Source: Oscillospiraceae bacterium (GTDB lineage: Bacteria > Bacillota > Clostridia > Oscillospirales > Oscillospiraceae). Taken from it: a DNA stretch of 64,000 nt. The notes below the pieces were generated by a model. That model had not been told where the DNA came from. It searched no databases and was given only the letters and a program-made list of their open reading frames with translations. Of the stretch, positions 4,843-16,227 are shown piece by piece; position 1 is the first letter of the stretch; each line of letters opens with the position of its first letter. Both the position numbers and the translations under genes were made by a program. The DNA lies in the NCBI GenBank assembly GCA_017622295.1, contig JAGARK010000016.1:1-64000 (forward strand), in the 5' to 3' direction.

Positions 4843-6630
4843 ATGAAAAAACTAACACTCCTGCTTCTTATGCTGGTAACGCTTTGCTGCCTACTGCCCC
4901 TGACGGTTTCGGCAGCAGAACAGAGCGGCACCTGCGGCGAGAATCTGACCTGGACACTGGATGACGCAGGAACCCTGACCATCTCCGGTACCGGCCCCAT
5001 GGAGGAGTACCGGCATTACCCTCCCTGGGAAGGCAGTGCTGCCAGTGTGACTTCCATTGTAATTGAAGAAGGTGTTACCACGATCTGCGGCAGTGCATTT
5101 TATAATTGCTCCAATGCAGTCTCCGTATCCATTCCCGATGGCATTACCTCCATCGGCAAAGGCGCGTTTTCCCAATGCGCCGGTCTGACCGGGATCACAA
5201 TTCCTGACAGCGTGCTCACCATTGGAGAATCTGCTTTTTACGGCTGCAGCAATCTGACTGACATTACGCTTTCCAGTTCCCTCTCTGTCATTGAAGAAGC
5301 GGTATTTCATAAATGCAGTACTTTGGCAGGAATCCGGATTCCGGACAGCGTGACCACCATCTCCAGTCAGGCCTTCAGCTACTGCAGCAGTCTGACCAAT
5401 GTGATCCTTGGCGCAAACGTCGCGGAAATCGCTCCCAATGCTTTCAATGAATGTAATCATCTGGTAAACTTCAGCATCGGTAGCCCCAATCCCCTATTAT
5501 CCGCCCAGCATGGTGTGCTTTTTGATGCCGATCTGAGTACCTTAATCCTTGCTCCCCGGGGCATTCAGGGTCACTATACCATTCCGGAAACTGTCATCGA
5601 CATCGCTGATTCCGCCTTCACGGAATGTAATGGCCTGAGCGGTGTGACCTTTCACTCCGATGTCAGCTCCATCGGCAGCAATGCATTTGCATACTGTGAT
5701 AATCTGAAGGATGTGATCATCGCAGAAGGTGTTGACGCCATCGGAGAGCGCGCTTTCTTCTCGTGCAACGCTCTGACCAGCATCACCATCCCTGGCAGCG
5801 TTCTGACGATCGGAAAAAGCGCTTTTGAAGACTGCACCGCTCTGACGGATGCGACCCTCTGTGAAGGCATCCTCACCATCGGCTCAGATGCCTTCTACAA
5901 TTGCGAAAGCCTGCGTGAGATCACCATCCCCGACAGCGTCACAGAGCTGGGTTTCGGTGCATTCTGCAAATGCTACGATCTGACCAGCGCCACAGTCGGA
6001 TGCGGTATCACTGCCCTCCAGTACTCAACCTTTGAGCTGTGTACTGCGATGAAGGAAGTGACACTGCCTGACGGTCTGCTGACCATTGGCAGGTACTGTT
6101 TCCAGGACTGCGGTCAGCTGACCCAGATCACCATTCCCGACAGCGTGACGACCATTGAATACAACGCGTTTTCCACTTGCAGTGAGATGAAAACCGTAAT
6201 CATCGGCAGCGGTGTTTCCGAGATCCAAACCAAAGCATTCCAACTGTGCCGGAATCTGGAAAAGGTTTATTTCACAGGTAATGCCCCCTCCTTCCCCAAA
6301 AACGGTAAAGGTGCATTCGATACCGTCACAGCGACTGTCTATTACCCCGCCGGCAACATCACCTGGACCGAGGACGTTATGTCCCAGGCATCCAAAGGTG
6401 CCACCCTCACCTGGGTTCCCAATTTTGGACAGATCCACCCCGGTGATCTGGACGGCGACGGCATGGTAAACGATGTGGACGTGGCTCGGCTGCTGTGGTA
6501 TACCCTTTTCCCGGACAGCTATACACTCAACGGCAATGCCGACTTCAATGGCGACGGCATGGTCAATGACGCGGACGTCGCCTACCTCCTGTGGCATACC
6601 CTCTTCCCCGATCAGTATCCCATCAACTGA
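4843..6630 (+). CDS. secreted BspA-type leucine-rich repeat protein with C-terminal dockerin
   Basis: A 595-residue extracellular protein. It has a signal peptide (about 1-24, cleavage after VSA), a short beta domain, then about 15 LRR_5/BspA repeats (about 75-500) with the recurring pattern ITIPDSVTTIG..AF..C..L. A linker (NITWTEDV) leads to a duplicated dockerin-like calcium-binding module at 535-595, with two DxDGDGxVNDxDV loops each followed by LLWxTLFPD. BspA LRR proteins bind surfaces or host proteins. Dockerins normally bind cohesins, but no cohesin gene is in this window. A second protein with the same C-terminal module is at 49866-51512. A good ribosome site (AAGGAGG) precedes the ATG. 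Confidence 0.88.
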   Translation: MKKLTLLLLMLVTLCCLLPLTVSAAEQSGTCGENLTWTLDDAGTLTISGTGPMEEYRHYPPWEGSAASVTSIVIEEGVTTICGSAFYNCSNAVSVSIPDGITSIGKGAFSQCAGLTGITIPDSVLTIGESAFYGCSNLTDITLSSSLSVIEEAVFHKCSTLAGIRIPDSVTTISSQAFSYCSSLTNVILGANVAEIAPNAFNECNHLVNFSIGSPNPLLSAQHGVLFDADLSTLILAPRGIQGHYTIPETVIDIADSAFTECNGLSGVTFHSDVSSIGSNAFAYCDNLKDVIIAEGVDAIGERAFFSCNALTSITIPGSVLTIGKSAFEDCTALTDATLCEGILTIGSDAFYNCESLREITIPDSVTELGFGAFCKCYDLTSATVGCGITALQYSTFELCTAMKEVTLPDGLLTIGRYCFQDCGQLTQITIPDSVTTIEYNAFSTCSEMKTVIIGSGVSEIQTKAFQLCRNLEKVYFTGNAPSFPKNGKGAFDTVTATVYYPAGNITWTEDVMSQASKGATLTWVPNFGQIHPGDLDGDGMVNDVDVARLLWYTLFPDSYTLNGNADFNGDGMVNDADVAYLLWHTLFPDQYPIN

Positions 6631-6631
6631 C

Positions 6632-6664
6632 AAAAAAGAACCGCCCACCGGGCGGTTCTTTTTT
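6632..6664. terminator. bidirectional terminator between the LRR-dockerin gene and the lipoprotein gene
   Basis: A perfect AAGAACCGCCC/GGGCGGTTCTT stem with a 3-base loop, flanked by A-tract and T-tract. It can stop transcription from both convergent genes. Confidence 0.9.
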
Positions 6665-6671
6665 GCGCTAA

Positions 6672-7250
6672 TTAGTTGACCACAGCGTTGTACTGGATGG
6701 AGTTGACCACGCCGTTTTCCAGGATCACGGTCAGGGTGCAGTCGCCGGAAGTCACGACGTAGGCGTTCTTGCCGTTGAAGTTTTCAGCGCCGTAGGCCTT
6801 CTCAACCTCGGCCTGGGATGCGCCAATGTAGATGCCCTCCTCGGTCTCCACGCTGTCATCCACCAGCCACAGGCAGTAGACATAGTCGGTGTCGCCCTCA
6901 GGATAGGTCTGCAGGTAGAAGCTGCCGTAGTAATAGGTCTTGTCCAGACCCTCAAAGGCGCAGCTCTCTTCCTCGGTGTACTTTTTTGCCTCGCCCAGGG
7001 CCTCAACGATGGGGCCGGCTTCGGCGTTCATGGCGATCTTGGTGCCGCCATAGGTGAAGGTGTAAGCTTCACCGGCAGGAGCGGCGTTTTCTGTAGGAGC
7101 ATCGGTTGCAGCGGCATCACCATTGGAGACAACGGCGCCGTTGTTGACGGGAGCATTGGTGGCTGCGGGATCTTCGGTTTCCTTGCCGCCGCAGGCAGCC
7201 AGGGTGCAGATCATAACCAGCACCAGCATCAGGCTGATAAATTTCTTCAT
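6672..7250 (-). CDS. lipoprotein of unknown function, end of the Dlt-like operon
   Basis: A 192-residue predicted lipoprotein with a lipobox (LAAC, Cys19) after a hydrophobic leader. It is followed by a disordered Ala/Thr/Asn-rich linker (about 25-70) and a globular C-terminal domain (about 72-192) with a conserved-looking stretch DYVYCLWLVDDSVETEEGIY. I do not recognise the domain. It begins 22 bases after the SGNH gene stop and shares its operon, so it may act at the membrane surface with the MBOAT/SGNH machinery. That link rests on position alone. Confidence 0.75.
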   Translation of the reverse strand: MKKFISLMLVLVMICTLAACGGKETEDPAATNAPVNNGAVVSNGDAAATDAPTENAAPAGEAYTFTYGGTKIAMNAEAGPIVEALGEAKKYTEEESCAFEGLDKTYYYGSFYLQTYPEGDTDYVYCLWLVDDSVETEEGIYIGASQAEVEKAYGAENFNGKNAYVVTSGDCTLTVILENGVVNSIQYNAVVN

Positions 7251-7272
7251 AATGGGTTCCTCCTAAAAAATA

Positions 7273-8346
7273 TCACTTTTGGGCAGCGTAGGCTGCCTCC
7301 AGTTCGGCTTTTTGTGCGTCGTAGGCCGCGGTCTTCTCCGCCCAAAGGGCGCTGAGCCCGGCATCACTGCGCCGGTCTGCAACGCCGCATTCCTCGGATA
7401 GGATTCTGCCGAAATAAGACGACAGCTTCTCCGCACCGTAGACATTCAGGTGCAGGCCGGTGTCATAGGTATCGGTATTCCAGTCGATACCGATTTCCTC
7501 CTGATGATTCAGGAAGTTGATGTACAACAGGTCATTTTCCTCGGCATAGGCAACCATCTGCTGGTCCCATTCGTCCCACCACACGGGAGACAATGACGGG
7601 GCCTTGATGAGTACCAGCTGGGTGCCGTGGGCCTTGCAAAGCTCCACCATCCGGTCCAGATACTCGTAGCAGCTGGGAGCGAATTCATAGTCCACCAGAG
7701 GCCGCTCCACATGCTCGTCCTCCAGGGGCTTGACCCCCACCTGCATCAGATAGCCGTTGTGGGAAACGGTGTCCCGCTTCAGCCAGTACCGGAAGTCCTC
7801 GGCTGTCAGCTCGCTCCAGCGGTCGTGGTAGCGCAGCAGCGGGAACAGGTACATCCACATGGCTTCCTTCTCCCGCTCCTCCTGAGTCATGGAGGCCAGA
7901 ATGGAATTGACTTTGGAATCAGACCAGCGCATACCGTCCAGGGTCATGCGGTTGTAGGCCTCTCTCTGGCTGGAGCTGCCGGTACTCTTGGGGGTGTCGT
8001 ACTTCATGGAGAGCACGTTGAAGACGATGACATCGGGGGTTTCGTACTTGAAGGTCTCCTCCATCAGATAGTAGGACTGCCAGATCAGCTGCTGGGCACT
8101 GCCCCGGATGTAGGACGTGATGCCATACTCCTCCCAGAGAGTGATGGGAGAGAAATTCTCATAGACCTCACAGTCGCCGATGAAGACCACGTCATGGTTG
8201 GGCTCTTCTTCATAGTACTCGGCGATCAGGGCGCCCTCCCTGACGTCGGTCATGTACTTGGGCACAAGCAGCATCTGCAGCAGCCACAGGAGCACTAGTC
8301 CGATGGCCAGCGCGGCCGCAAAAATTGCAATGGATTTCTTTTTCAC
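7273..8346 (-). CDS. DltD-like SGNH-fold membrane-anchored protein with Cys in place of the nucleophile Ser
   Basis: A 357-residue protein with one N-terminal transmembrane helix (about 5-28) and an extracytoplasmic SGNH/GDSL-type domain. Block I reads FIGDCEVYENFSP, so Cys59 stands where the family has Ser. The C-terminal catalytic pair is present as DTGLHLN (Asp295, His299). The GTG start at 8346 is chosen because GAGGAGG lies 3-4 bases upstream and because it leaves a 10-base gap after the MBOAT gene. In Dlt and alginate systems such partners work with the MBOAT protein in acyl or aminoacyl transfer. The ends of the protein (Ala/Lys-rich last 30 residues) look like a helical tail. Confidence 0.78.
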   Translation of the reverse strand: MKKKSIAIFAAALAIGLVLLWLLQMLLVPKYMTDVREGALIAEYYEEEPNHDVVFIGDCEVYENFSPITLWEEYGITSYIRGSAQQLIWQSYYLMEETFKYETPDVIVFNVLSMKYDTPKSTGSSSQREAYNRMTLDGMRWSDSKVNSILASMTQEEREKEAMWMYLFPLLRYHDRWSELTAEDFRYWLKRDTVSHNGYLMQVGVKPLEDEHVERPLVDYEFAPSCYEYLDRMVELCKAHGTQLVLIKAPSLSPVWWDEWDQQMVAYAEENDLLYINFLNHQEEIGIDWNTDTYDTGLHLNVYGAEKLSSYFGRILSEECGVADRRSDAGLSALWAEKTAAYDAQKAELEAAYAAQK

Positions 8347-8356
8347 GGCTGCCTCC

Positions 8357-9922
8357 TCAGAACTGATTGTAGATAAAATTACTGGCGTCGTAGCCGATAC
8401 CATAGCTGCCCATCAGCAGCACCACGACCAACAGGATGAAGATCAGGCTGTAGCGCAGCGCAGCGGGCTTGGCATACAGCCGTTCCCGGATGGGGCCCTT
8501 CTCCTGCAGCAGGTCCATGACGAACCAGGTCAGGCAGCCGCCGAAGATGATGGCATAATCCAAAGCAGTCAAGCCGATGTTCATCAGCGTGCCGTCCCAC
8601 AGGATGTGGAAATTGAAGGTGGTAACGATGCTGCCCAGTCTGCGGAAATAGTCCCCCACATTGGGGAACAGATCGCAGGCCCGGATCAGGTTCATCAGCA
8701 TGAACATCCGCAGGATCTCGAAGCCGCCGTACCACTTCTTCTCCTTCAGGTGGAAGCGGTCATGGAACTTGGCATAAACCGGCATCAGCTCCTCGCTCAC
8801 CACGATGACAAAGCAGTTGAGCATGCCCCAGACGATGAAATTGGCGCTGAAGCCATGCCAGATACCGGTGCAGAACCAAGTGGCGACAGAGGCCACATAC
8901 ACCGGCACCCGCTTACCGAAATTGGGGAATTTCGCCCGGGAAGCCTTGGAGAGCTTACGCATGGGCTCGGAAACGGAGATGGGATAGAAGATGCAATCCT
9001 TCATCCAGACGCCCAAGCTGATATGCCAACGGCGCCAGTATTCCGCAATGTTCTTGGAGAAATAGGGACGGATGAAGTTTTCGGGCAGTTTGATGCCCAT
9101 TGCCTCGGCAAGACCGATGGTCACATCGATGCCGCCGGTGAAGTCGCCGTAGATCTGAATGGCATAGAACACCGTCAACACCAGAAATGCAATGCCAGTG
9201 TATTCCTCACCCTTCAGAGAACCGATGGCCACGGCGATCCGGTCCGCCACCACCAGCTTCTTGAAGTAACCCCAGAGCATCCGCTGTAGGCCGAAGGAAA
9301 CGGCCTTGCCGTCAAACTTGTGGGGGGCATAAAGCGTGGGGGTAAGCTGGTTAAACTTGCTGATAGGGCCCTGGATCAGCTGGGGGAAGAAAGAAACGAA
9401 AAGGGCCAGCTTGAAGGGGTTGCGCTCTGTCTTCGCTGTCTCCCGGTACACATCCACCACATAGCCCATGGACTGGAACATGTAGAAGGAAATACCCAGA
9501 GGCAGGCCCACCGTCAGGAAGGACAAGGTGCCGCCGCTGACGGCCGTGCGCACCGGGTCGATGAGACAGGCCTTGCACAGCGCCAGAATGCCGAAATTCA
9601 GCACAAGGCAGGCTACCATCCAGACCTTATTGCCGGACTTGATCTTTGCTTTGTATGCCTTCTTCTCTTCCCGGGACATCTCCGCCTTGTGGGCCGCCAT
9701 GTAGACGTCCCGCTGCTTCAGGCGGTTGTCCATCAGGATCGTGGTAGCATAGGTACTGAGCGTGGTCAGCGCAATGAAGACCAGATACTCCGTGCCTGCG
9801 CTGATGTAGAAGAAGCAGCTCGCAATCAACAGAAGCGGCCACTGCCATTTACCCGGAATGATGTAATAGACTGTCAGCAGCACCGCCGCAAACAGAAGAA
9901 AGGAAAAAGATGTAAACTGCAT
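8357..9922 (-). CDS. MBOAT family membrane O-acyltransferase (DltB/AlgI-like)
   Basis: A 521-residue polytopic membrane protein with about 10-11 hydrophobic segments. It carries the MBOAT signatures: PLGISFYMFQSMGYVVDVYR (about 141-160), QLIQGPISKF, YWRRWHISLGVW with His300, and GIWHGFSANFIVWG with the invariant His356. Family members pass an acyl or aminoacyl group from a cytoplasmic carrier to an extracellular polymer. The gene lies 4 bases after the carrier-protein gene and just before the SGNH gene, in the order DltC-DltB-DltD. The family alone does not fix the group transferred. Confidence 0.88.
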   Translation of the reverse strand: MQFTSFSFLLFAAVLLTVYYIIPGKWQWPLLLIASCFFYISAGTEYLVFIALTTLSTYATTILMDNRLKQRDVYMAAHKAEMSREEKKAYKAKIKSGNKVWMVACLVLNFGILALCKACLIDPVRTAVSGGTLSFLTVGLPLGISFYMFQSMGYVVDVYRETAKTERNPFKLALFVSFFPQLIQGPISKFNQLTPTLYAPHKFDGKAVSFGLQRMLWGYFKKLVVADRIAVAIGSLKGEEYTGIAFLVLTVFYAIQIYGDFTGGIDVTIGLAEAMGIKLPENFIRPYFSKNIAEYWRRWHISLGVWMKDCIFYPISVSEPMRKLSKASRAKFPNFGKRVPVYVASVATWFCTGIWHGFSANFIVWGMLNCFVIVVSEELMPVYAKFHDRFHLKEKKWYGGFEILRMFMLMNLIRACDLFPNVGDYFRRLGSIVTTFNFHILWDGTLMNIGLTALDYAIIFGGCLTWFVMDLLQEKGPIRERLYAKPAALRYSLIFILLVVVLLMGSYGIGYDASNFIYNQF

Positions 9923-9926
9923 GGTT

Positions 9927-10154
9927 TTATTCGTCCAGCAGCTTCTCGATCAGCGCATACAGCGCCTGGGCGGAGTTGAAGTTCTCGGGAACCAGCTCCT
10001 CGGCGGGGATGGCAACGTCATACTCGGCGTCGATCTCAGCCACCAGGGTAACGATGTCGAAGGAATCGAGAATCTTGTCGTCGATCAGAGTGGTGCAGGT
10101 CTCGAAGTCAACCTCGGGATGCAGCTCGGACAGAATGTTCAGCAATGCTTCCAT
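9927..10154 (-). CDS. acyl/aminoacyl carrier protein (DltC-like)
   Basis: A 75-residue acidic four-helix carrier protein. The phosphopantetheine attachment site is Ser31 in DKILDSFDIVTLVAEID. The LDSF context with a following acidic helix resembles DltC and other small carrier proteins. It should carry the group activated by the adenylating enzyme at 10703-12220 and hand it to the MBOAT protein encoded next. A GGAGA site precedes the ATG. Confidence 0.85.
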   Translation of the reverse strand: MEALLNILSELHPEVDFETCTTLIDDKILDSFDIVTLVAEIDAEYDVAIPAEELVPENFNSAQALYALIEKLLDE

Positions 10155-10182
10155 GATAATAATCTCCTTTGTGTTTCAATGA

Positions 10183-10533
10183 TTACCTGCCAAAATCGGA
10201 CTCTACGATCTCTTTTGCAGCAGCGATCAGAACGCGCAGACCACTGTCACTCATTTCATCCAGAAGATGATCCAGATAGCGCCGTTCGGCAGTCTTGGTG
10301 GTGGATTTGTTTGGAAAGAAATACTGGTCCACAGAAATATCATAACGGGAAACCAGCTCATAAAAAATCTGCAGGCTGGGATGTTGGCCGTTGTTTTCGA
10401 TATTCGCAAGATAACGGGGAGAAAGATTCATCTCATCGCAAACTTTTTTGCGCGACTCATTTCTCCCCATACGCGCGGACTTTATTGCTTTTCCCAAACA
10501 GCTAAAATCATAAACTGGGACTTGTCTTTTCAT
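10183..10533 (-). CDS. XRE-family helix-turn-helix regulator
   Basis: A 116-residue DNA-binding protein with an N-terminal HTH_3 domain (about 12-70; KVCDEMNLSPRYLANIENNGQHPSL is the HTH and following loop) and a short C-terminal helical part. It is the first gene of the unit XRE-carrier-MBOAT-SGNH-lipoprotein and probably regulates it, perhaps including the racemase-ligase unit upstream. Possible minus-strand promoter elements are TTGAGC and TAGACA with 17 bases between them, both weak. The signal is unknown. Confidence 0.82.
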   Translation of the reverse strand: MKRQVPVYDFSCLGKAIKSARMGRNESRKKVCDEMNLSPRYLANIENNGQHPSLQIFYELVSRYDISVDQYFFPNKSTTKTAERRYLDHLLDEMSDSGLRVLIAAAKEIVESDFGR

Positions 10534-10657
10534 TGCATATTCACCCTATGATATTTTACTGTTTTCATCTCCGTTTGGATATGTCTACACAGTTCCTATA
10601 ACTCGCTCAAATAATGCCTATTTTATGAAATATTAATACAAATTTAAAATAAAAAAA

Positions 10658-10690
10658 GCAACGGTGAAGTCTCATTACTTCACCGTTGCT
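10658..10690 (-). terminator. terminator after the DltA-like gene
   Basis: The perfect stem GCAACGGTGAAGT/ACTTCACCGTTGC has a 6-base loop and is followed on the minus strand by a T-run. It separates the racemase-ligase unit from the regulator-carrier-MBOAT unit, so the two parts of the locus can be expressed independently. Confidence 0.9.
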
Positions 10691-10702
10691 TAAAAAATGC
10701 AA

Positions 10703-12220
10703 TCAGCCGTTTTTATTCATATACATCTGCTTGAGCAGATTGCGGTCGATTTTTCCGTTGGGGGTCAGGGGCATGGTCTCCAGCTGGCGGATCACATGGG
10801 GCACCATGTACCGGGGCAGCTTGTCCTTGATGTAGGCGGTCATATCCTTGAAGTCCAGGTCGCCCACATAGTACAGAACGATCTTTTTCTTTTCGCCGTC
10901 AAAGATGCAGCAGGCGCTCTTGACGTCGTCGTGCATGTTGGCGATGACCTCGATCTCGCCCAGTTCGATGCGGTGGCCCATGTGCTTGATCTGGAAGTCC
11001 TTACGGGACAGGAACACCAGCTCTCCCCGCTCATTGTACTTGCCGATGTCACCGGTGCGGTAGATCAGCTCGGGGTACAGATCGTTCAGGGGGTTCTGGA
11101 CGAAGGCCTTGGAAGTGACCTCCGGATTACGGTAGTAGCCCAGGGTCAGCCGGGTACCGCGAACGCAGATCTCGCCCTGCTGGCCGGGACCTGCCAATTT
11201 ATCATTCTCGTCCAGCAGCATGATCTCGGTATTGCGGAAGGGACGGCCCACGGGCAGCACCTCATCCAGACCGAATTCCCGGTCCACCTCATAGTAGCAG
11301 CAGATGCCGGTGGTCTCGGTGGGGCCGTAGAGGTTGATAAACCGGGCCTGGGGCAGTGCGGCCCGCCACAGGTTGAACTGCTTGATGGGGAACACCTCGC
11401 TGGCGAAGGCCACAGTATGCAGGTACTGAGGGATCACCTTGTCGAAGGTCTTAAAGGCGGAGATCATGGTCAGGGCGGAAACCACCCAGCAGACCGTGTT
11501 GATCTTCTTCTCGTTCAGGAACTCCACCAGCTTGATGGGGAACATGAACAGCTGCTTCGGGATCAGAATGGTGGTGGCGCCGTATTTCAAAGTGGGCATG
11601 ACCTCCTTGAGGTATGCGTCGAAATACAGGGGCGTTTGATTGCCGAAAACGCTGTTTTCATTGAACCTCAGCACATCACACAGATTCTCCACATAGTCCA
11701 GCACGCTGCGGTGGCAGGCGGTGACACCCTTGGGCACGCCGGTGGAGCCGGAGGTGAAGACGATGTAGATGGGGTCAATGTCCAACTGGCGGTCCCGGAT
11801 GGAAGCCAGGGCATCCTCCGCCACGGCAGTTTCGCAAATCTCGCTGTAAATATAGGTTTTGCCGTGATAATCGAATTCCTCCACCAGGGGGGCAGTGGTC
11901 TGATCGCAGATCATGGCAGCGGGATTCAGGGTCTTCAGGATCAGTTCGATCCGGTGCCGGGGCATTTCATCGTCCAGGGGGACATAATAGCAGCCGGCGT
12001 AGATGGTGCCGAAGAAGGACACCAGGGTGGTGGGATGCTTCTTCATGAACACCACCACGGCTTTTTTATAGAAGCCCTCGTTATGAAGGAAGGAGCCCAC
12101 AGACCGGGCCTGGTCATAGACCTGCCGGAAGGTCAGGCCCATTTCCTCATTGGCAAAGGCCACCTTCTCCGGCACCCGGGTCACAGTATGCTCCAGATAT
12201 TCCAATACATTCGTCTGCAT
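10703..12220 (-). CDS. DltA-like amino-acid adenylating enzyme
   Basis: A 505-residue member of the ANL superfamily. Motifs: FTSGSTGVPKGV (155-166, ATP loop), YFDAYLKE with Asp201 (the residue that usually binds the substrate amino group), YGPTET (298-303), YRTGDIGKY (388-395), hinge and GEIE (421-424), and the catalytic lysine in LTPNGKIDR (Lys490). Length and layout match D-alanine:carrier ligase DltA. However, the segment corresponding to the DltA FCGE pocket reads FASE (272-275), so D-Ala specificity is doubtful. It is cotranscribed with an Asp/Glu racemase (gap 11 bases). The likely acceptor is the carrier protein at 9927-10154. Confidence 0.85.
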   Translation of the reverse strand: MQTNVLEYLEHTVTRVPEKVAFANEEMGLTFRQVYDQARSVGSFLHNEGFYKKAVVVFMKKHPTTLVSFFGTIYAGCYYVPLDDEMPRHRIELILKTLNPAAMICDQTTAPLVEEFDYHGKTYIYSEICETAVAEDALASIRDRQLDIDPIYIVFTSGSTGVPKGVTACHRSVLDYVENLCDVLRFNENSVFGNQTPLYFDAYLKEVMPTLKYGATTILIPKQLFMFPIKLVEFLNEKKINTVCWVVSALTMISAFKTFDKVIPQYLHTVAFASEVFPIKQFNLWRAALPQARFINLYGPTETTGICCYYEVDREFGLDEVLPVGRPFRNTEIMLLDENDKLAGPGQQGEICVRGTRLTLGYYRNPEVTSKAFVQNPLNDLYPELIYRTGDIGKYNERGELVFLSRKDFQIKHMGHRIELGEIEVIANMHDDVKSACCIFDGEKKKIVLYYVGDLDFKDMTAYIKDKLPRYMVPHVIRQLETMPLTPNGKIDRNLLKQMYMNKNG

Positions 12221-12231
12221 GAAAATTCTCC

Positions 12232-12966
12232 TTACTTGGTAATCAGACAGTCGTAATTCTTTTTCAGGGGGGCGCCACAGCGCACAACCGCCTGCTGAGC
12301 CAGCACTTCCAGTGCATCCAAAAATCCGGCACCGATATAATGATCCCGCTTGATCAGCGACAGCTCAGTGCAGCCGAGAATGATGACTTCAGCACCGTTT
12401 TCCCGGAGCTCCTCCGCCACCTGGCGAAACCGCGCCATATCGGCGGGGCGGTTGGCCTTGATGCACTCAAAAATCAGATGCATCACATCCTTCTGGCGCT
12501 CTTTCGAGGGAATCACACGGGTGATGCCCCGCTTTTCCAACTCCTTCTGAAAAATACCGGAGGACACTGTACCGTCGGTGGCCATGATGCCCACAGTGCG
12601 GATTCCCGCATTCTGCAAATGAATGGCCGTCTCCTGGGGCGCATGGATAATGGGGACGGATATGGCCTGACTGAGACTCTCGTGGAAATAATGGGCGGTA
12701 ACGCAGGGAATCGCGATACAGCCCACCCCCTGCTCCGACAGCCGCCGCCCCAGATCGATCATGGACTCCAGTGGGCTGGGCAGCGTGGGGTCCAGAATAA
12801 AGCTGCTACGGTCCGGAATGGAGGGGGTGTGATAAATCACCATATCCAGATGCTGCTGATCCCGCTGGGCATCCGTCATGCGGATCACCAGCTCCATGAA
12901 ATGGGAAGTGGCAATGGGGCCAAGGCCGCCGATGACACCCAAAGTTTTCTGTTGTGCCTGGGTCAT
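12232..12966 (-). CDS. Asp/Glu/hydantoin racemase family protein
   Basis: A 244-residue cofactor-independent racemase of the aspartate/glutamate type. It has an N-terminal GVIGGLGPIAT motif and the two catalytic cysteines, Cys88 in AIPCVTAHYF and Cys199 in ILGCTELSLI. The usual CNT triad of the first site is CVT here. The start at 12966 is set by GGAGG a few bases upstream and lies 1 base after the stop of the transglutaminase-like gene, indicating coupling. Interconversion of L- and D-Asp or Glu is the family activity. Next to an adenylating enzyme it may supply the D-amino acid. Substrate not determinable from sequence. Confidence 0.83.
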   Translation of the reverse strand: MTQAQQKTLGVIGGLGPIATSHFMELVIRMTDAQRDQQHLDMVIYHTPSIPDRSSFILDPTLPSPLESMIDLGRRLSEQGVGCIAIPCVTAHYFHESLSQAISVPIIHAPQETAIHLQNAGIRTVGIMATDGTVSSGIFQKELEKRGITRVIPSKERQKDVMHLIFECIKANRPADMARFRQVAEELRENGAEVIILGCTELSLIKRDHYIGAGFLDALEVLAQQAVVRCGAPLKKNYDCLITK

Positions 12967-12967
12967 G

Positions 12968-14470
12968 TTATTCCTCCGGGGTTGCGGGGTAAAGACTCTT
13001 GTCATAGGTGTAGTAGTCCACACAGTGGCCGTTGAACCACTCCAGGACCGCATCCGTCACCAGACACATATTCCGTGCAGGTCTGGGATGGGGACAGGAG
13101 TCAAAATGGTAGAAAGTCTCACCGCCGTCCACGCTGACCATGCTCCAGTAATGGGTGGTGGTCCGGGCGGTGCCGGGAGAACGCTGGATGGAAAGATTGG
13201 GCAGGCCCAGCCGCTCGAACATCAGCCGGCACACGGCGTAGAAGCCGAAGCAGTCACCATAGCCCTTGTCCAGCATCTGGTAAGCAGCCTGCATCCAGTC
13301 AGTCTTGTCGCAGTCGCTGGAATACCAGCACTCGTTGAGGACCCACTTGTAGATGGCCTTGACCTTGGCGGTGTCGGACATGCTGCTGTTGGTGATTCTT
13401 GCCAGGACCTTGTCGGCGGCGGCATAGATGGTCTCCTGATCCGCCAGTTCCTTGGAAGCCTCGCTGACGGTGATGGTGGTCTCCATGGAAACTTCATTGC
13501 CGGCACCATCCTTTGCGGTGTAGACCACAGGGTAAGTGCCGGGGGTGCTCAGGTCCACCTGGCTGGAATCGATGGACAGCTTGGGATTATCGTCGATGTC
13601 ATCTCTGACGATGACGTCACTGCGGTAGGAAATCGTGCTGCCCACAAAAACGGACAGATTCCGAACGCCCAGAAGCTGAGGAGCCGTATCATCCTTGACC
13701 ACGGTGACGGTGGTGGTGACGGAGGTCTCATTGCCGCTGGCGTCAACGGCGGTGTAGGTCACATCATATGTACCGGGCGTCTCCAGATCCACTTTGCTGT
13801 CGTCTACGGTCAGCAAAGCCTCGGGGTCCAGATCGTCGGTGACAGTGACGCCCTCCAGCAGACCGGCCTCCATACCCAGGAATACAACCCGCTCTTCGGC
13901 GCCGGTGATTTCAGGGGCAGTTTCATCGTGGAGGATGGTCAGGGTGGCTGCAAATCTTGCGGTGTTGCCGCCCAGATCCGTCAGCACGATGGTAACCATC
14001 TGGTCGCCTTCCAGAGAGGTATCGGGTTCATGGGAGAAGGAAGCGGTGACCTGGGTCATATCGCTGACGCTGGTGACAAAGTCCGCCGCGGTGGGGATCT
14101 TGTTGGAAAAGGCAGTGATGTTCTGCACCGTACCGGTGGGAGCCACGGTATCCTGCACCCGCAGGGATGCAGGAATGGGAATGTAACAATACTTGACAGT
14201 CACCCGATGCTCACCGGGCACATTCAGATCGAGGGCAGAAAGATCCGTCTGAATCTCTGCTTCCAGGCCCATATCACTGATGATAAAGTCCTGGGCAGTG
14301 ACGGACTGACCGACTTCCATGGTCACTTCAGACCTGACATTTTGAATGATATATTTCCAGAACAGGAAACCGCAGACCAGCACCAGTGCCAGAAGCACCA
14401 GCAGCACAATCTTGCCGGCGGGGCCTTTTTTCGGCTTCTCTTTCAGGTATTTGGGATGATGTTTGCTCAT
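12968..14470 (-). CDS. membrane-anchored protein with Ig-like (DUF5011-type) repeats and transglutaminase-like domain
   Basis: A 500-residue protein: basic cytoplasmic tail, one transmembrane helix (about 20-42), a beta-rich region, at least two Ig-like DUF5011-type repeats (about 180-350; pattern VDLSTPGTYPVVYTAKDGAGNE) and a C-terminal transglutaminase-like fold. The Cys-His-Asp triad is visible as Cys407 (GDCFGF), His440 (THYWSMV) and Asp457 (HFDSC). It should face the cell exterior and act on proteins or peptidoglycan as protease, amidase or cross-linker. The start at 14470 is chosen over an ATG 6 bases upstream because AAGGAGA is better spaced. It leads the racemase-ligase operon. A paralogue with the same layout is at 23275-24789. 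Confidence 0.82.
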   Translation of the reverse strand: MSKHHPKYLKEKPKKGPAGKIVLLVLLALVLVCGFLFWKYIIQNVRSEVTMEVGQSVTAQDFIISDMGLEAEIQTDLSALDLNVPGEHRVTVKYCYIPIPASLRVQDTVAPTGTVQNITAFSNKIPTAADFVTSVSDMTQVTASFSHEPDTSLEGDQMVTIVLTDLGGNTARFAATLTILHDETAPEITGAEERVVFLGMEAGLLEGVTVTDDLDPEALLTVDDSKVDLETPGTYDVTYTAVDASGNETSVTTTVTVVKDDTAPQLLGVRNLSVFVGSTISYRSDVIVRDDIDDNPKLSIDSSQVDLSTPGTYPVVYTAKDGAGNEVSMETTITVSEASKELADQETIYAAADKVLARITNSSMSDTAKVKAIYKWVLNECWYSSDCDKTDWMQAAYQMLDKGYGDCFGFYAVCRLMFERLGLPNLSIQRSPGTARTTTHYWSMVSVDGGETFYHFDSCPHPRPARNMCLVTDAVLEWFNGHCVDYYTYDKSLYPATPEE

Positions 14471-14582
14471 GGTCATTCTCCTTTTGACAGGAAGCTGCCC
14501 GACGAAAACCGGCAGCAAATTCTGACATTTTCACGGGGCACAGTGGGAAAACGCCCAGATTCTCCCTTGTACCCATCTTAGT

Positions 14583-14612
14583 ATTATACACACCTGTGCG
14601 CTGCTTCGTCAA
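14583..14612 (-). promoter_or_regulatory. promoter of the transglutaminase-racemase-ligase operon
   Basis: Minus-strand -35 TTGACG (plus 14607-14612), an 18-base spacer and -10 TATAAT (plus 14583-14588), about 110 bases before the first start codon. Confidence 0.7.
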
Positions 14613-14650
14613 GCAGAATGTCATTAAATTCATCTTAATTCTCAAGGAAA

Positions 14651-14676
14651 AACCCGGTAACAAACGTTACCGGGTG
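14651..14676 (-). terminator. terminator after the YczE-like gene
   Basis: The stem ACCCGGTAAC/GTTACCGGGT with a 4-base loop is followed on the minus strand by TTTTTCC. It closes the helicase-dprA-YczE unit. Confidence 0.85.
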
Positions 14677-14697
14677 GAGTATGTCAGAAATCAGGGA

Positions 14698-15327
14698 TTA
14701 TGTCCGGCTGTTTTCCCGGGGTGTGAAAACATGCTTCTTCCAGAAGTCCATAGCAGGACCGAAAATCAGGGCGGCAATGATGGTGCCCTCCCGGAGGGTC
14801 CATTCGGTTCCGAAGATTAAGGTCAACACCACGCTGATCAGGACCAGCACAATGTCGATCTTCTGCCGGAGCTTGCCCATGGTGGTACCGATGCGCTCGG
14901 CGATCATCTGGATACAGCCCTCCATGGGGGTGCGCATCAGATGGGTCTCCAGCACCAGGGTGCAGCCGAAGGCGCTGACCAGGAAGGCAATGACCGTGAC
15001 GATCAGACGGACGGGATAGAAGGTGAAGGTCACATCCTTGAGGATCGTATACAGGAAGAAATTCAGGACGCTGCCGCCCAGGGTGATATACAGCAGCTGC
15101 AGATACTCCGTTTTACGAAAATTCTTCCGCTCCATGGCGATCTGCCCCAGGAAGAAGGAGCCGTGAAATATCATGGAGAAGGTGCCGACCCTGATGCCGA
15201 TACACTCGGCGATGGTGGCAATGGCAGCATCCACAGGTAGTACGCCGATGGCCGCCTTGATGGCAAAGGCCACAGAGGCATACACCAGAATGATGCCCAG
15301 AATGGTAAGACCGATTTTCTTTGTCAT
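14698..15327 (-). CDS. YczE/YyaS/YitT-family integral membrane protein
   Basis: A 209-residue membrane protein with about five to six transmembrane helices. It has the family features of a small polar residue-rich first helix (AFAIKAAIGVLPVDA) and a central GCTLVLETHLMRTP segment. No catalytic motif is seen and the biochemical role of the family is unknown; transport has been suggested. It lies 15 bases downstream of dprA and appears to be the last gene of that unit. Confidence 0.75.
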   Translation of the reverse strand: MTKKIGLTILGIILVYASVAFAIKAAIGVLPVDAAIATIAECIGIRVGTFSMIFHGSFFLGQIAMERKNFRKTEYLQLLYITLGGSVLNFFLYTILKDVTFTFYPVRLIVTVIAFLVSAFGCTLVLETHLMRTPMEGCIQMIAERIGTTMGKLRQKIDIVLVLISVVLTLIFGTEWTLREGTIIAALIFGPAMDFWKKHVFTPRENSRT

Positions 15328-15342
15328 AAAATGTCCTCCTTT

Positions 15343-16227
15343 TTAAAAAAGGGTAATCTGTTCCGGAAGATCGTAAAAGGAATCCAGAGCGTTGATCCCA
15401 ATGAGATTGGCTCCCATCTGGCCCAGAAGGGCCGCTCCCTCGCTGCCGTCATCGAAGCAGTAGACACTGCTCCAGCCATGGCGCAGATTCTTTGCGGTGC
15501 CGGCCCAGGTTCCGCCGGCCGCAAGGCCGGTCTGGGCCACGAAGGTTTTCAGACCCAGAGTGTGGATACAGCGGTTTCGGCTCAGGGCCCGCTGGGCGGA
15601 AAACTCCTCGTCATAGCCATCTTCACTGAGATAGAGCACATTTTCCCGCAGGGGATGCTTCCAGAGGGCGTCGGGAACAATGCTGACGATCTTGCCGCCG
15701 GAGGCCAGGCAGGCCTCCTGGGCCGCTTTGTCCGCGCCCCGGGCATTGCCGGAGATCAGCACATAGCCCTGCAGCGCAGCCTGACGGCCTGCTTCCGCCG
15801 CAAAGCGCCAGTTTTCCTCCCGCAGCTCCCGGCTGCCCACCAGCGCAACGGCAGGCTGGGCCAACAAGGACACATTTCCCCTGGCCCACAGGCATCCGGG
15901 GGCCTCCGCCCCCAGCCGTCTGCGCAGCAGCGCCGGATAGTCGTCACTGACCCGGGTGATGCAGACACAGCCGAGCTTTGCGGCCTTTTGAAGATAGTAA
16001 TCCAGCCGCTCTTCTTCGGAAAGGAGCTTCACGATCCGTCCGGCCATCTCCGGGCCATAGCCCAGGGCCAGCAGATCCTTCGATTCCAGCTCCCGGTCCT
16101 CCATTGTTCTTTCCGCAGAGGCCATACGCTCCGTAAGGATCCGGAACTGGGCCACAGTCAGGGGCTTTCGCCGAGGGTCTCCCAGATGGCTTGTCAGCAG
16201 CAGGAAGCCCCGCTCTGCGGCTCTCAA
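15343..16227 (-). CDS. dprA: DNA-processing protein DprA/Smf
   Basis: A 294-residue protein of the DprA family, which loads RecA on incoming single-stranded DNA during transformation. It has an N-terminal helical region and a Rossmann-like core: VALVGSRELREENW (about 165-180), YVLISGNARGADKAAQEACL (about 192-212; the classical form is SGxARGID, here ARGAD) and a KIVSIVPDALW segment. A C-terminal winged helix is not apparent, as in many short Clostridial forms. The start is a TTG overlapping the helicase stop (TTGA), indicating translational coupling. Confidence 0.83.
   Translation of the reverse strand: MRAAERGFLLLTSHLGDPRRKPLTVAQFRILTERMASAERTMEDRELESKDLLALGYGPEMAGRIVKLLSEEERLDYYLQKAAKLGCVCITRVSDDYPALLRRRLGAEAPGCLWARGNVSLLAQPAVALVGSRELREENWRFAAEAGRQAALQGYVLISGNARGADKAAQEACLASGGKIVSIVPDALWKHPLRENVLYLSEDGYDEEFSAQRALSRNRCIHTLGLKTFVAQTGLAAGGTWAGTAKNLRHGWSSVYCFDDGSEGAALLGQMGANLIGINALDSFYDLPEQITLF

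Follow-up and report, generated by a model that had tools for sequence, protein, structure and literature searches.

A Dlt-like gene cassette with an aspartate-type racemase in an Oscillospiraceae genome: a candidate system for the export of an acidic amino acid

The window considered here is a stretch of 64,000 nucleotides from an Oscillospiraceae bacterium (GenBank assembly GCA_017622295.1, contig JAGARK010000016.1, positions 1 to 64,000). Its minus strand carries, from 14470 to 6672 and in this order, genes for a transglutaminase-like protein (TG), a racemase (RAC) and an adenylating ligase (LIG), a terminator-like hairpin, and genes for an XRE-type regulator, a small carrier protein, an MBOAT acyltransferase, an SGNH-type protein and a lipoprotein (LIPO). 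A preliminary description of the locus had placed these parts on one strand, and every part that it named was recovered on the minus strand; the word "fused" in its title does not apply, the parts being separate genes. The cassette is a real and widespread variant of Dlt-type aminoacyl export, undescribed as far as our searches reach, and its substrate is probably D-aspartate (D-Asp).

The TG gene (12968..14470) encodes 500 amino acids with Ig-like domains, a Transglut_core match of 40 bits and a membrane anchor judged by eye, and its catalytic cysteine, histidine and aspartate are each present in 67 of the 67 aligned rows of at least 80% length. RAC (12232..12966, 244 amino acids) is a RacD-like member of the Asp/Glu superfamily, scoring 153 bits with PF01177 and 214 bits with TIGR00035 (cut-off 93). 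LIG (10703..12220) is a stand-alone amino acid adenylating enzyme (AMP-binding domain, 215 bits) with pocket residues D235, A236 and K239, and is not DltA. The carrier (9927..10154, 75 amino acids) matches the PP-binding model at 20.5 bits, slightly below the Pfam value of 20.8, and bears its phosphopantetheine serine as Ser31 in a DSFD motif, a residue kept in 78 of 79 rows. The MBOAT protein (8357..9922, 521 amino acids) ends in a fused acyl-shuttle motif, FIYNQF (codons at 8360..8377), whose Tyr518 is the predicted acyl-tyrosine carrier. The SGNH-type protein (7273..8346, 357 amino acids from a GTG start) has GDCE, with Cys59 at the nucleophile place, and keeps D295 and H299; its only domain match is a weak one to Lipase_GDSL_2 (21 bits, under its cut-off). 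LIPO (6672..7250, 192 amino acids) has no Pfam match and represents an unnamed family, and solved structures offered no useful relative of either the SGNH protein or LIPO.

A scan of GTDB genomes with LIG yielded 590 relatives, the best 80 of which were kept by rank as named loci; these belong mainly to metagenome-assembled genomes of Oscillospiraceae, Lachnospiraceae and other Clostridia, and to Pseudobutyrivibrio. On the strand of LIG and within 9 kb of it, TG was found in 74 of the 80 loci, RAC in 60, the carrier in 78, MBOAT in 79, the SGNH protein in 72 and the lipoprotein in 50, as counted by single-sequence searches on contigs some of which are short. LIG, carrier, MBOAT and SGNH protein stand together anywhere in the locus in 74 of 80, all seven parts are present in 33, with the gene order of the window in 26 of those 33, and RAC lies at most 300 nt upstream of LIG in 55 of 80. 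As it recurs in many species, this gene set goes far beyond chance. Within the family of the window, 39 of 150 genomes match the ligase at E 1e-80; identity is at least 54% for ten of them (the genome of the window included) and about 32–48% for the remainder, and two genomes of the same genus have no match at this threshold. At E 1e-150, 45 of 391 genomes of the class have a match. Cultured carriers are P. xylanivorans DSM 14809 (L041) and P. ruminis DSM 9787 (L044), neither with a lipoprotein match. A plasmid search at E 1e-60 returned 18 records, all below 60% identity, and the eight listed were either like nonribosomal peptide synthetases (NRPSs) or no more than 39% identical. The 30 largest families of flanking genes, mostly read by eye, included no further widespread partner of the whole cassette.

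Several loci depart from the common arrangement. The genomes G438 and G523 carry the cassette as two loci without linkage to each other, TG-LIG-LIPO and TG-RAC-MBOAT-SGNH-LIPO (L233/L195, L234/L196), each half with its own TG and lipoprotein gene; the carrier was recognized in the second locus of G523, and the retention of both halves in these genomes argues for one system. Locus L030 (6214-11506) is rearranged, with SGNH, MBOAT, carrier, RAC and LIG genes in one same-strand run and a more distant MBOAT. In rumen Clostridia, L068, L070-L073, L080 and L084 carry three tandem TG-like genes and no racemase before the ligase.

Relation to D-alanylation and to MBOAT-SGNH acylation

The cassette resembles the DltABCD(X) system in that a ligase, a small carrier, an MBOAT protein and an SGNH-type protein are encoded in one operon, but the individual proteins differ from their Dlt counterparts. 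LIG reaches 265 bits with the DltA model TIGR01734 (cut-off 560), the carrier, for all that it has the phosphopantetheine serine, 29 bits with the DltC model (cut-off 68) and the MBOAT protein 142 bits with the DltB model (cut-off 375), so that none passes, and the SGNH protein has no match to PF04914 (DltD). The methyl group of D-Ala points into a DltA cavity of Leu, Met and Cys, as described in passages of PMC8972799; none of the three is kept in LIG. The cassette further differs in bearing the shuttle motif on MBOAT instead of DltX, in having a cysteine for the SGNH serine, and in the Asp-type racemase of most of its loci. On the model scores and the pocket residues, a canonical dlt operon was rejected. 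The DltA cut-off of 560 bits is not passed in any of the 150 genomes of the family; four come to 474–487 bits, three of them at loci with a clear DltD. A literature search of openly licensed PMC papers, by titles and the starts of abstracts, found no description of a system like the cassette.

Homologues of the two accessory genes are also found at Dlt loci. Homologues of TG and LIPO flank all four Dlt loci read in relatives (L126-L129); Transglut_core is over its cut-off in all four, and DltD is confirmed by Pfam in L126-L128 (PF04914, 269–281 bits, with GSSE at the nucleophile place). The ligase clusters without racemase, L121-L124 and L222-L224, yielded neither a TG nor a lipoprotein homologue. 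This distribution suggests that TG and LIPO form a shared accessory pair for surface aminoacylation, with a possible general role in passing amino acids to the surface.

A second point of comparison is the acyl shuttle. In passages of PMC12148441, the tyrosine of an FXYXXF tail is acylated, the tail belonging to DltX in the Dlt pathway and forming part of MBOAT itself in acyl-CoA-fed systems that have no carrier protein. The cassette is a hybrid, with the tail fused to MBOAT and a carrier protein present: F-x-Y-x-x-F forms the MBOAT C-terminus in 76 of 78 rows (L026 has a changed end and L035 is cut by its contig), and the invariant MBOAT histidine is found as H356 in 78 of 78. The DltB-like MBOAT proteins of the DltA-like loci L109-L112 have no C-terminal tail. 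With MBOAT-SGNH O-acyltransferases such as PatAB the cassette shares the C-terminal shuttle motif and the partner SGNH protein, but it adds a ligase and a carrier and has Cys at the SGNH nucleophile place. Ligase relatives of 40–48% identity from the same class (L121-L124, L222-L224, L226) also combine ligase, carrier, MBOAT with an FXYXXF-like tail and, in most, an SGNH protein, so the hybrid of fused tail and carrier is not confined to the cassette. They differ from it in their pocket codes, in having no TG or lipoprotein gene inside the cluster, and in that a search of the stretch revealed no RAC. Several more amino acids are possibly exported in a similar manner.

At the nucleophile place of the SGNH protein, GDCE with its cysteine is found in 74 of 75 rows and also in the other cassette SGNH proteins examined, and neither Asp295 nor His299 varies across the 40 rows of one alignment. 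Passages of a review of SGNH proteins speak of serine nucleophiles only (PMC9487903), and, where the motif was seen, the SGNH proteins of the related clusters have serine (GDSE in L123 and L223, GSSE in L122, GSSP in L224, GNSD in L226). A profile comparison with DltD gave a weak match (probability 7%, E 0.005), in which GDCE was aligned onto GSSE. An obligate Cys59-Cys237 disulfide is unlikely: Cys237 occurs in six of six aligned relatives, five of which have Ser at 59 and none Cys, the sixth being unaligned there. A thioester intermediate at Cys59 would ease transfer to amines.

Ligase pocket, racemase and substrate class

The residues of the DltA cavity (198, 201 and 269 in Bacillus cereus) correspond to positions 236, 239 and 301 in GrsA numbering, where LIG of the window has Ala, Lys and Ala. 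Across 81 ligase rows, position 236 is Ala in all, 239 is Lys in 80 and Arg in one, and 301 is Gly in 60, Ala in 13, Val in seven and Ser in one. A further 41 rows, at least four of them duplicates, agree (236 Ala in 41; 239 Lys in 39 and Arg in two; 301 Gly in 39 and Val in two). At position 278, alignment to the GrsA fragment gives Cys244, next to which stands a Trp. A conserved positive charge at 239 suits an acidic side chain, which the pocket of LIG, as judged from its residues, fits. Glu-activating NRPS domains have Lys at this position, and Gln-activating domains have Gln. NRPS codes separate Glu, Gln, Asp and Asn poorly, since passages of PMC12283262 give one code, DAQDLGVVDK, for both Glu and Gln and another, DLTKVGHVGK, for both Asp and Asn.

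The racemase points more specifically to aspartate. In an alignment to 1jfl, both catalytic cysteines of RAC, together with the Arg and Lys that align with R48 and K164 of PH0670, are present in 61 of 61 rows; the latter two we take to be the carboxylate-binding residues of Asp racemases. Scans with Pfam and NCBIfam models did not place RAC in an alanine racemase family. With a MurI of its own (203 bits, cut-off 147), the genome does not depend on a second racemase for D-Glu. Four of the five top racemase matches in genomes without the ligase were read (G450, G333, G358 and G290, corresponding to L230, L231, L232 and L235), and each racemase adjoins a member of one protein family, 42–97% identical among the four; the family member has weak matches of ATP-grasp type in L230 and L235 and matches nothing in Pfam in L232, and a PDB search gave no relative. 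Other neighbors are an Asn synthase in L230 and L231 and MurE in L232 and L235. Passages of PMC4155827 place racD of Lactococcus lactis in the operon of aslA, AslA being an ATP-grasp enzyme and AsnH the Asn synthase that amidates D-Asp. By this context the ATP-grasp-like proteins are putative D-Asp ligases. On the racemase tree, the L230 and L231 enzymes nest among the cassette racemases (support 81–93, not starred). Because the nearest racemases outside the cassette thus lie in loci like AslA-RacD-AsnH, D-Asp is the substrate that we favor, and the racemase context speaks for it over D-Glu.

The AslA-RacD-AsnH system itself, which makes the D-Asp/D-Asn side chain of lactococcal and enterococcal peptidoglycan, resembles the cassette in its RacD-like racemase and in the Asn-synthase-like gene found on the cassette strand in four loci (L059, L060, L069 and L211; L029 has it on the opposite strand; the two that were scanned score 219 and 211 bits). 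It differs in that the cassette activates its amino acid by adenylation, exports it on a carrier and would act outside the cell instead of on cytoplasmic precursors; the window operon has no ATP-grasp D-Asp ligase beside RAC. In Pseudobutyrivibrio, 10 of 18 loci (L038-L042, L045, L048, L050, L053 and L054) have a D-aminoacyl-tRNA deacylase gene directly 3' of the SGNH gene (202 bits in the one scanned), and in an eleventh, L037, it lies 0.7 kb further on. This neighbor fits a D-amino acid, but is limited to one genus.

The link between racemase and ligase extends beyond single loci. In one sample of the class (n=391), an Asp-type racemase is present anywhere in the genome, at E 1e-15, in 36 of 40 ligase genomes versus 69 of 351 others (Fisher p 6e-19, not corrected for kinship), a count that leaves out five ligase matches of 46–48% identity with other pocket codes. 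In freshly fetched loci of the class, RAC lies inside the locus in 25 of 39; two of the other 14 are cut by the contig end at LIG, and for two more a close RAC lies at another locus. Among the named loci 20 are without RAC, three of them on short or edge contigs from genomes that do hold racemase matches. Presence of RAC changes at least 6–8 times on the ligase tree. The racemase-ligase pairing, on which the preliminary description had made its interpretation depend, is thus conserved in many species and is not universal. A link between Val331 and racemase loss, noticed before testing (13 of 16 Val rows among the 81 aligned ligases are RAC-less in the locus), was dropped: on the tree it gives 4–6 independent pairs, of which 3–4 are mostly in agreement, no more than one is opposed and the remainder show no difference (median p 0.125–0.25), and in the fresh set the close clade is free of Val rows, and Met stands in three rows from racemase-free genomes, with one more such row from a short contig.

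A candidate route for D-aspartate and its alternatives

The interpretation that we favor, with a confidence just above even, is that the locus encodes all that is needed to take an acidic amino acid, in all likelihood D-Asp, across the membrane. RAC would convert L-Asp to D-Asp, which LIG would adenylate and load onto the phosphopantetheine of the carrier. MBOAT would then shift D-Asp onto Tyr518 in the FIYNQF tail at its own C-terminus, from which it would pass to Cys59 of the SGNH protein, and the latter would transfer it to an extracellular acceptor, which may be a surface polymer, a wall peptide or a protein, with TG and LIPO acting on or near this acceptor. In a bolder and rather unlikely version, the SGNH cysteine would hold D-Asp as a thioester and pass it to an amine. 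The cassette would then provide an extracytoplasmic, amide-forming D-aspartyl ligase, an outside counterpart of AslA that builds branches of D-Asp or amidated D-Asn on wall peptides, amino sugars or proteins, to be linked or trimmed by TG. The central proposal of the preliminary description, a Dlt-like aminoacyl export for an amino acid other than D-Ala, is supported by the association of racemase and ligase in many species and by a pocket that fits an acidic side chain. As to its further proviso, a ligase specific for D-Ala in a genome with no full dlt operon elsewhere, a second such ligase was indeed not found (the genome is 75% complete), but the pocket argues against D-Ala.

Several observations weigh against D-Asp export by this route. 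RAC is missing from 17 of 77 named loci, and of the 17 genomes concerned 12 have no match at E 1e-5, two have only weak ones (28 bits) and three have an Asp-type racemase elsewhere. An Asp-type racemase is likewise missing from four of the 40 ligase genomes of the class, and the ten remaining RAC-less fresh loci comprise six with only a 31–39% match elsewhere and four with none, including one on a 3.3-kb contig. In RAC-less loci, then, either the racemase is dispensable or another substrate is used. K239 also occurs in more distant ligases without a nearby racemase, so this lysine alone is no proof of D-Asp, and the racemases of L232 and L235 fall outside those of the cassette on the tree. In the rearranged L030, LIG and RAC are accompanied, in another order, by an SGNH protein of Ser type (GSSG, 45 bits) and the more distant MBOAT; with all these genes in one same-strand run, a cassette ligase can evidently pair with a Ser-type protein, and L030 is a true exception to the cysteine. 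Finally, RAC passes the NCBIfam model for cysteate racemase (CuyB), NF052483, at 204 bits versus a cut-off of 190. This identity was not adopted, as the model also passes for two racemases beside ATP-grasp-like proteins. The model is over its cut-off for the racemases of the window, L010, L230, L232 and L234, in quite different contexts, and the CuyB name may be given too widely.

Of the alternatives, the strongest, although less likely than the favored reading, is that the same machine handles another acid, either D-Glu supplied by MurI or plain L-Asp or L-Glu, with the racemase only boosting supply or having another task. The same Lys pocket in cassettes of genomes without a clear Asp-type racemase speaks for it, as does the Lys239 of Glu-activating NRPS domains, the one code seen for Glu, DAQDLGVVDK, being given for Gln as well. 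Position 301, moreover, is mostly Gly or Ala and not Cys, and passages of PMC4176424 report that the corresponding Cys269 of B. cereus DltA weighs on the choice between D and L and that C269A relaxes the preference for D. It is opposed by the strong genome association with an Asp-type racemase, by the presence of a separate MurI and by the kinship of the racemase with those of the ATP-grasp loci. Distinctly improbable is a cassette that makes or releases a small aminoacylated product, such as a signal, a siderophore-like compound or an antibiotic, and decorates no polymer. In a PDB search, some NRPS modules (GrsA with 222 bits) do outscore DltA (185 bits) as matches of LIG, and no polymer-synthesis gene was recognized among the recurrent flanking families, mostly read by eye, but neither a condensation nor a thioesterase domain was seen in the cassette proteins of the window, MBOAT and SGNH proteins with a shuttle motif are the layout of polymer acylation in passages of PMC12148441, and TG, with its Ig domains, and LIPO are envelope proteins. 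Least probable of all is a diverged D-alanylation system with an incidental racemase beside it, which could draw on the overall layout of DltA, C, B and D functions, on the failure to find another such ligase in the 75%-complete genome or one over the DltA cut-off in any of the 150 family genomes, and on the same accessory genes at the Dlt loci of four relatives (DltD checked in three), but which is contradicted by LIG, carrier and MBOAT scores far below the Dlt cut-offs, an SGNH protein without a PF04914 match, a cavity with all three residues changed, one of them to Lys, and a racemase from outside the alanine racemase family.

If the D-Asp export reading is true, D-alanylation would be just a single instance within a broader class of surface aminoacylation, and many Clostridia of gut and rumen would attach an acidic D-amino acid to their envelope, a novel type of surface decoration. 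Unlike D-Ala, D-Asp would add a carboxylate with each amine and so have a different effect on surface charge, with possible consequences for host peptides, phages and D-amino acid signals in the gut. The natural hybrid of a carrier-fed MBOAT with its own shuttle tail, together with the cysteine that replaces the SGNH serine, would be useful for testing acyl transfer across membranes.

Regulatory elements and flanking genes of the window

The preliminary description had proposed that ligase and export genes form two units under separate control. In the window, LIG is followed on its 3' side by the intrinsic terminator-like hairpin (10656..10691, a pattern match with 15 pairs and a T run) and then by the gene for the XRE-type regulator (10183..10533), so that 548 nt separate LIG from the carrier gene, versus a median of 18.5 nt in 78 loci, three of which exceed 600 nt. 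No homologue of the XRE gene was found in 80 related loci (phmmer, E 1e-5). From this comparison, terminator and regulator look like a local change, private to the window, and the short gaps elsewhere argue that separate control is not a feature of the system. A sigma-70-like promoter lies 5' of TG (14583..14612, minus strand) as a consensus match only, with 11 of 12 bases; promoter- and terminator-like sites show no excess over shuffled sequences in the scan, and an Rfam scan of 6000-15500 gave no match at the gathering score. Upstream of the cassette, 14698-15327 on the minus strand encodes a membrane protein that is weakly YczE-like (33 bits, under the cut-off), and at its other end the cassette adjoins a plus-strand gene (4843-6630) for a secreted protein with BspA-type leucine-rich repeats and a terminal dockerin domain.

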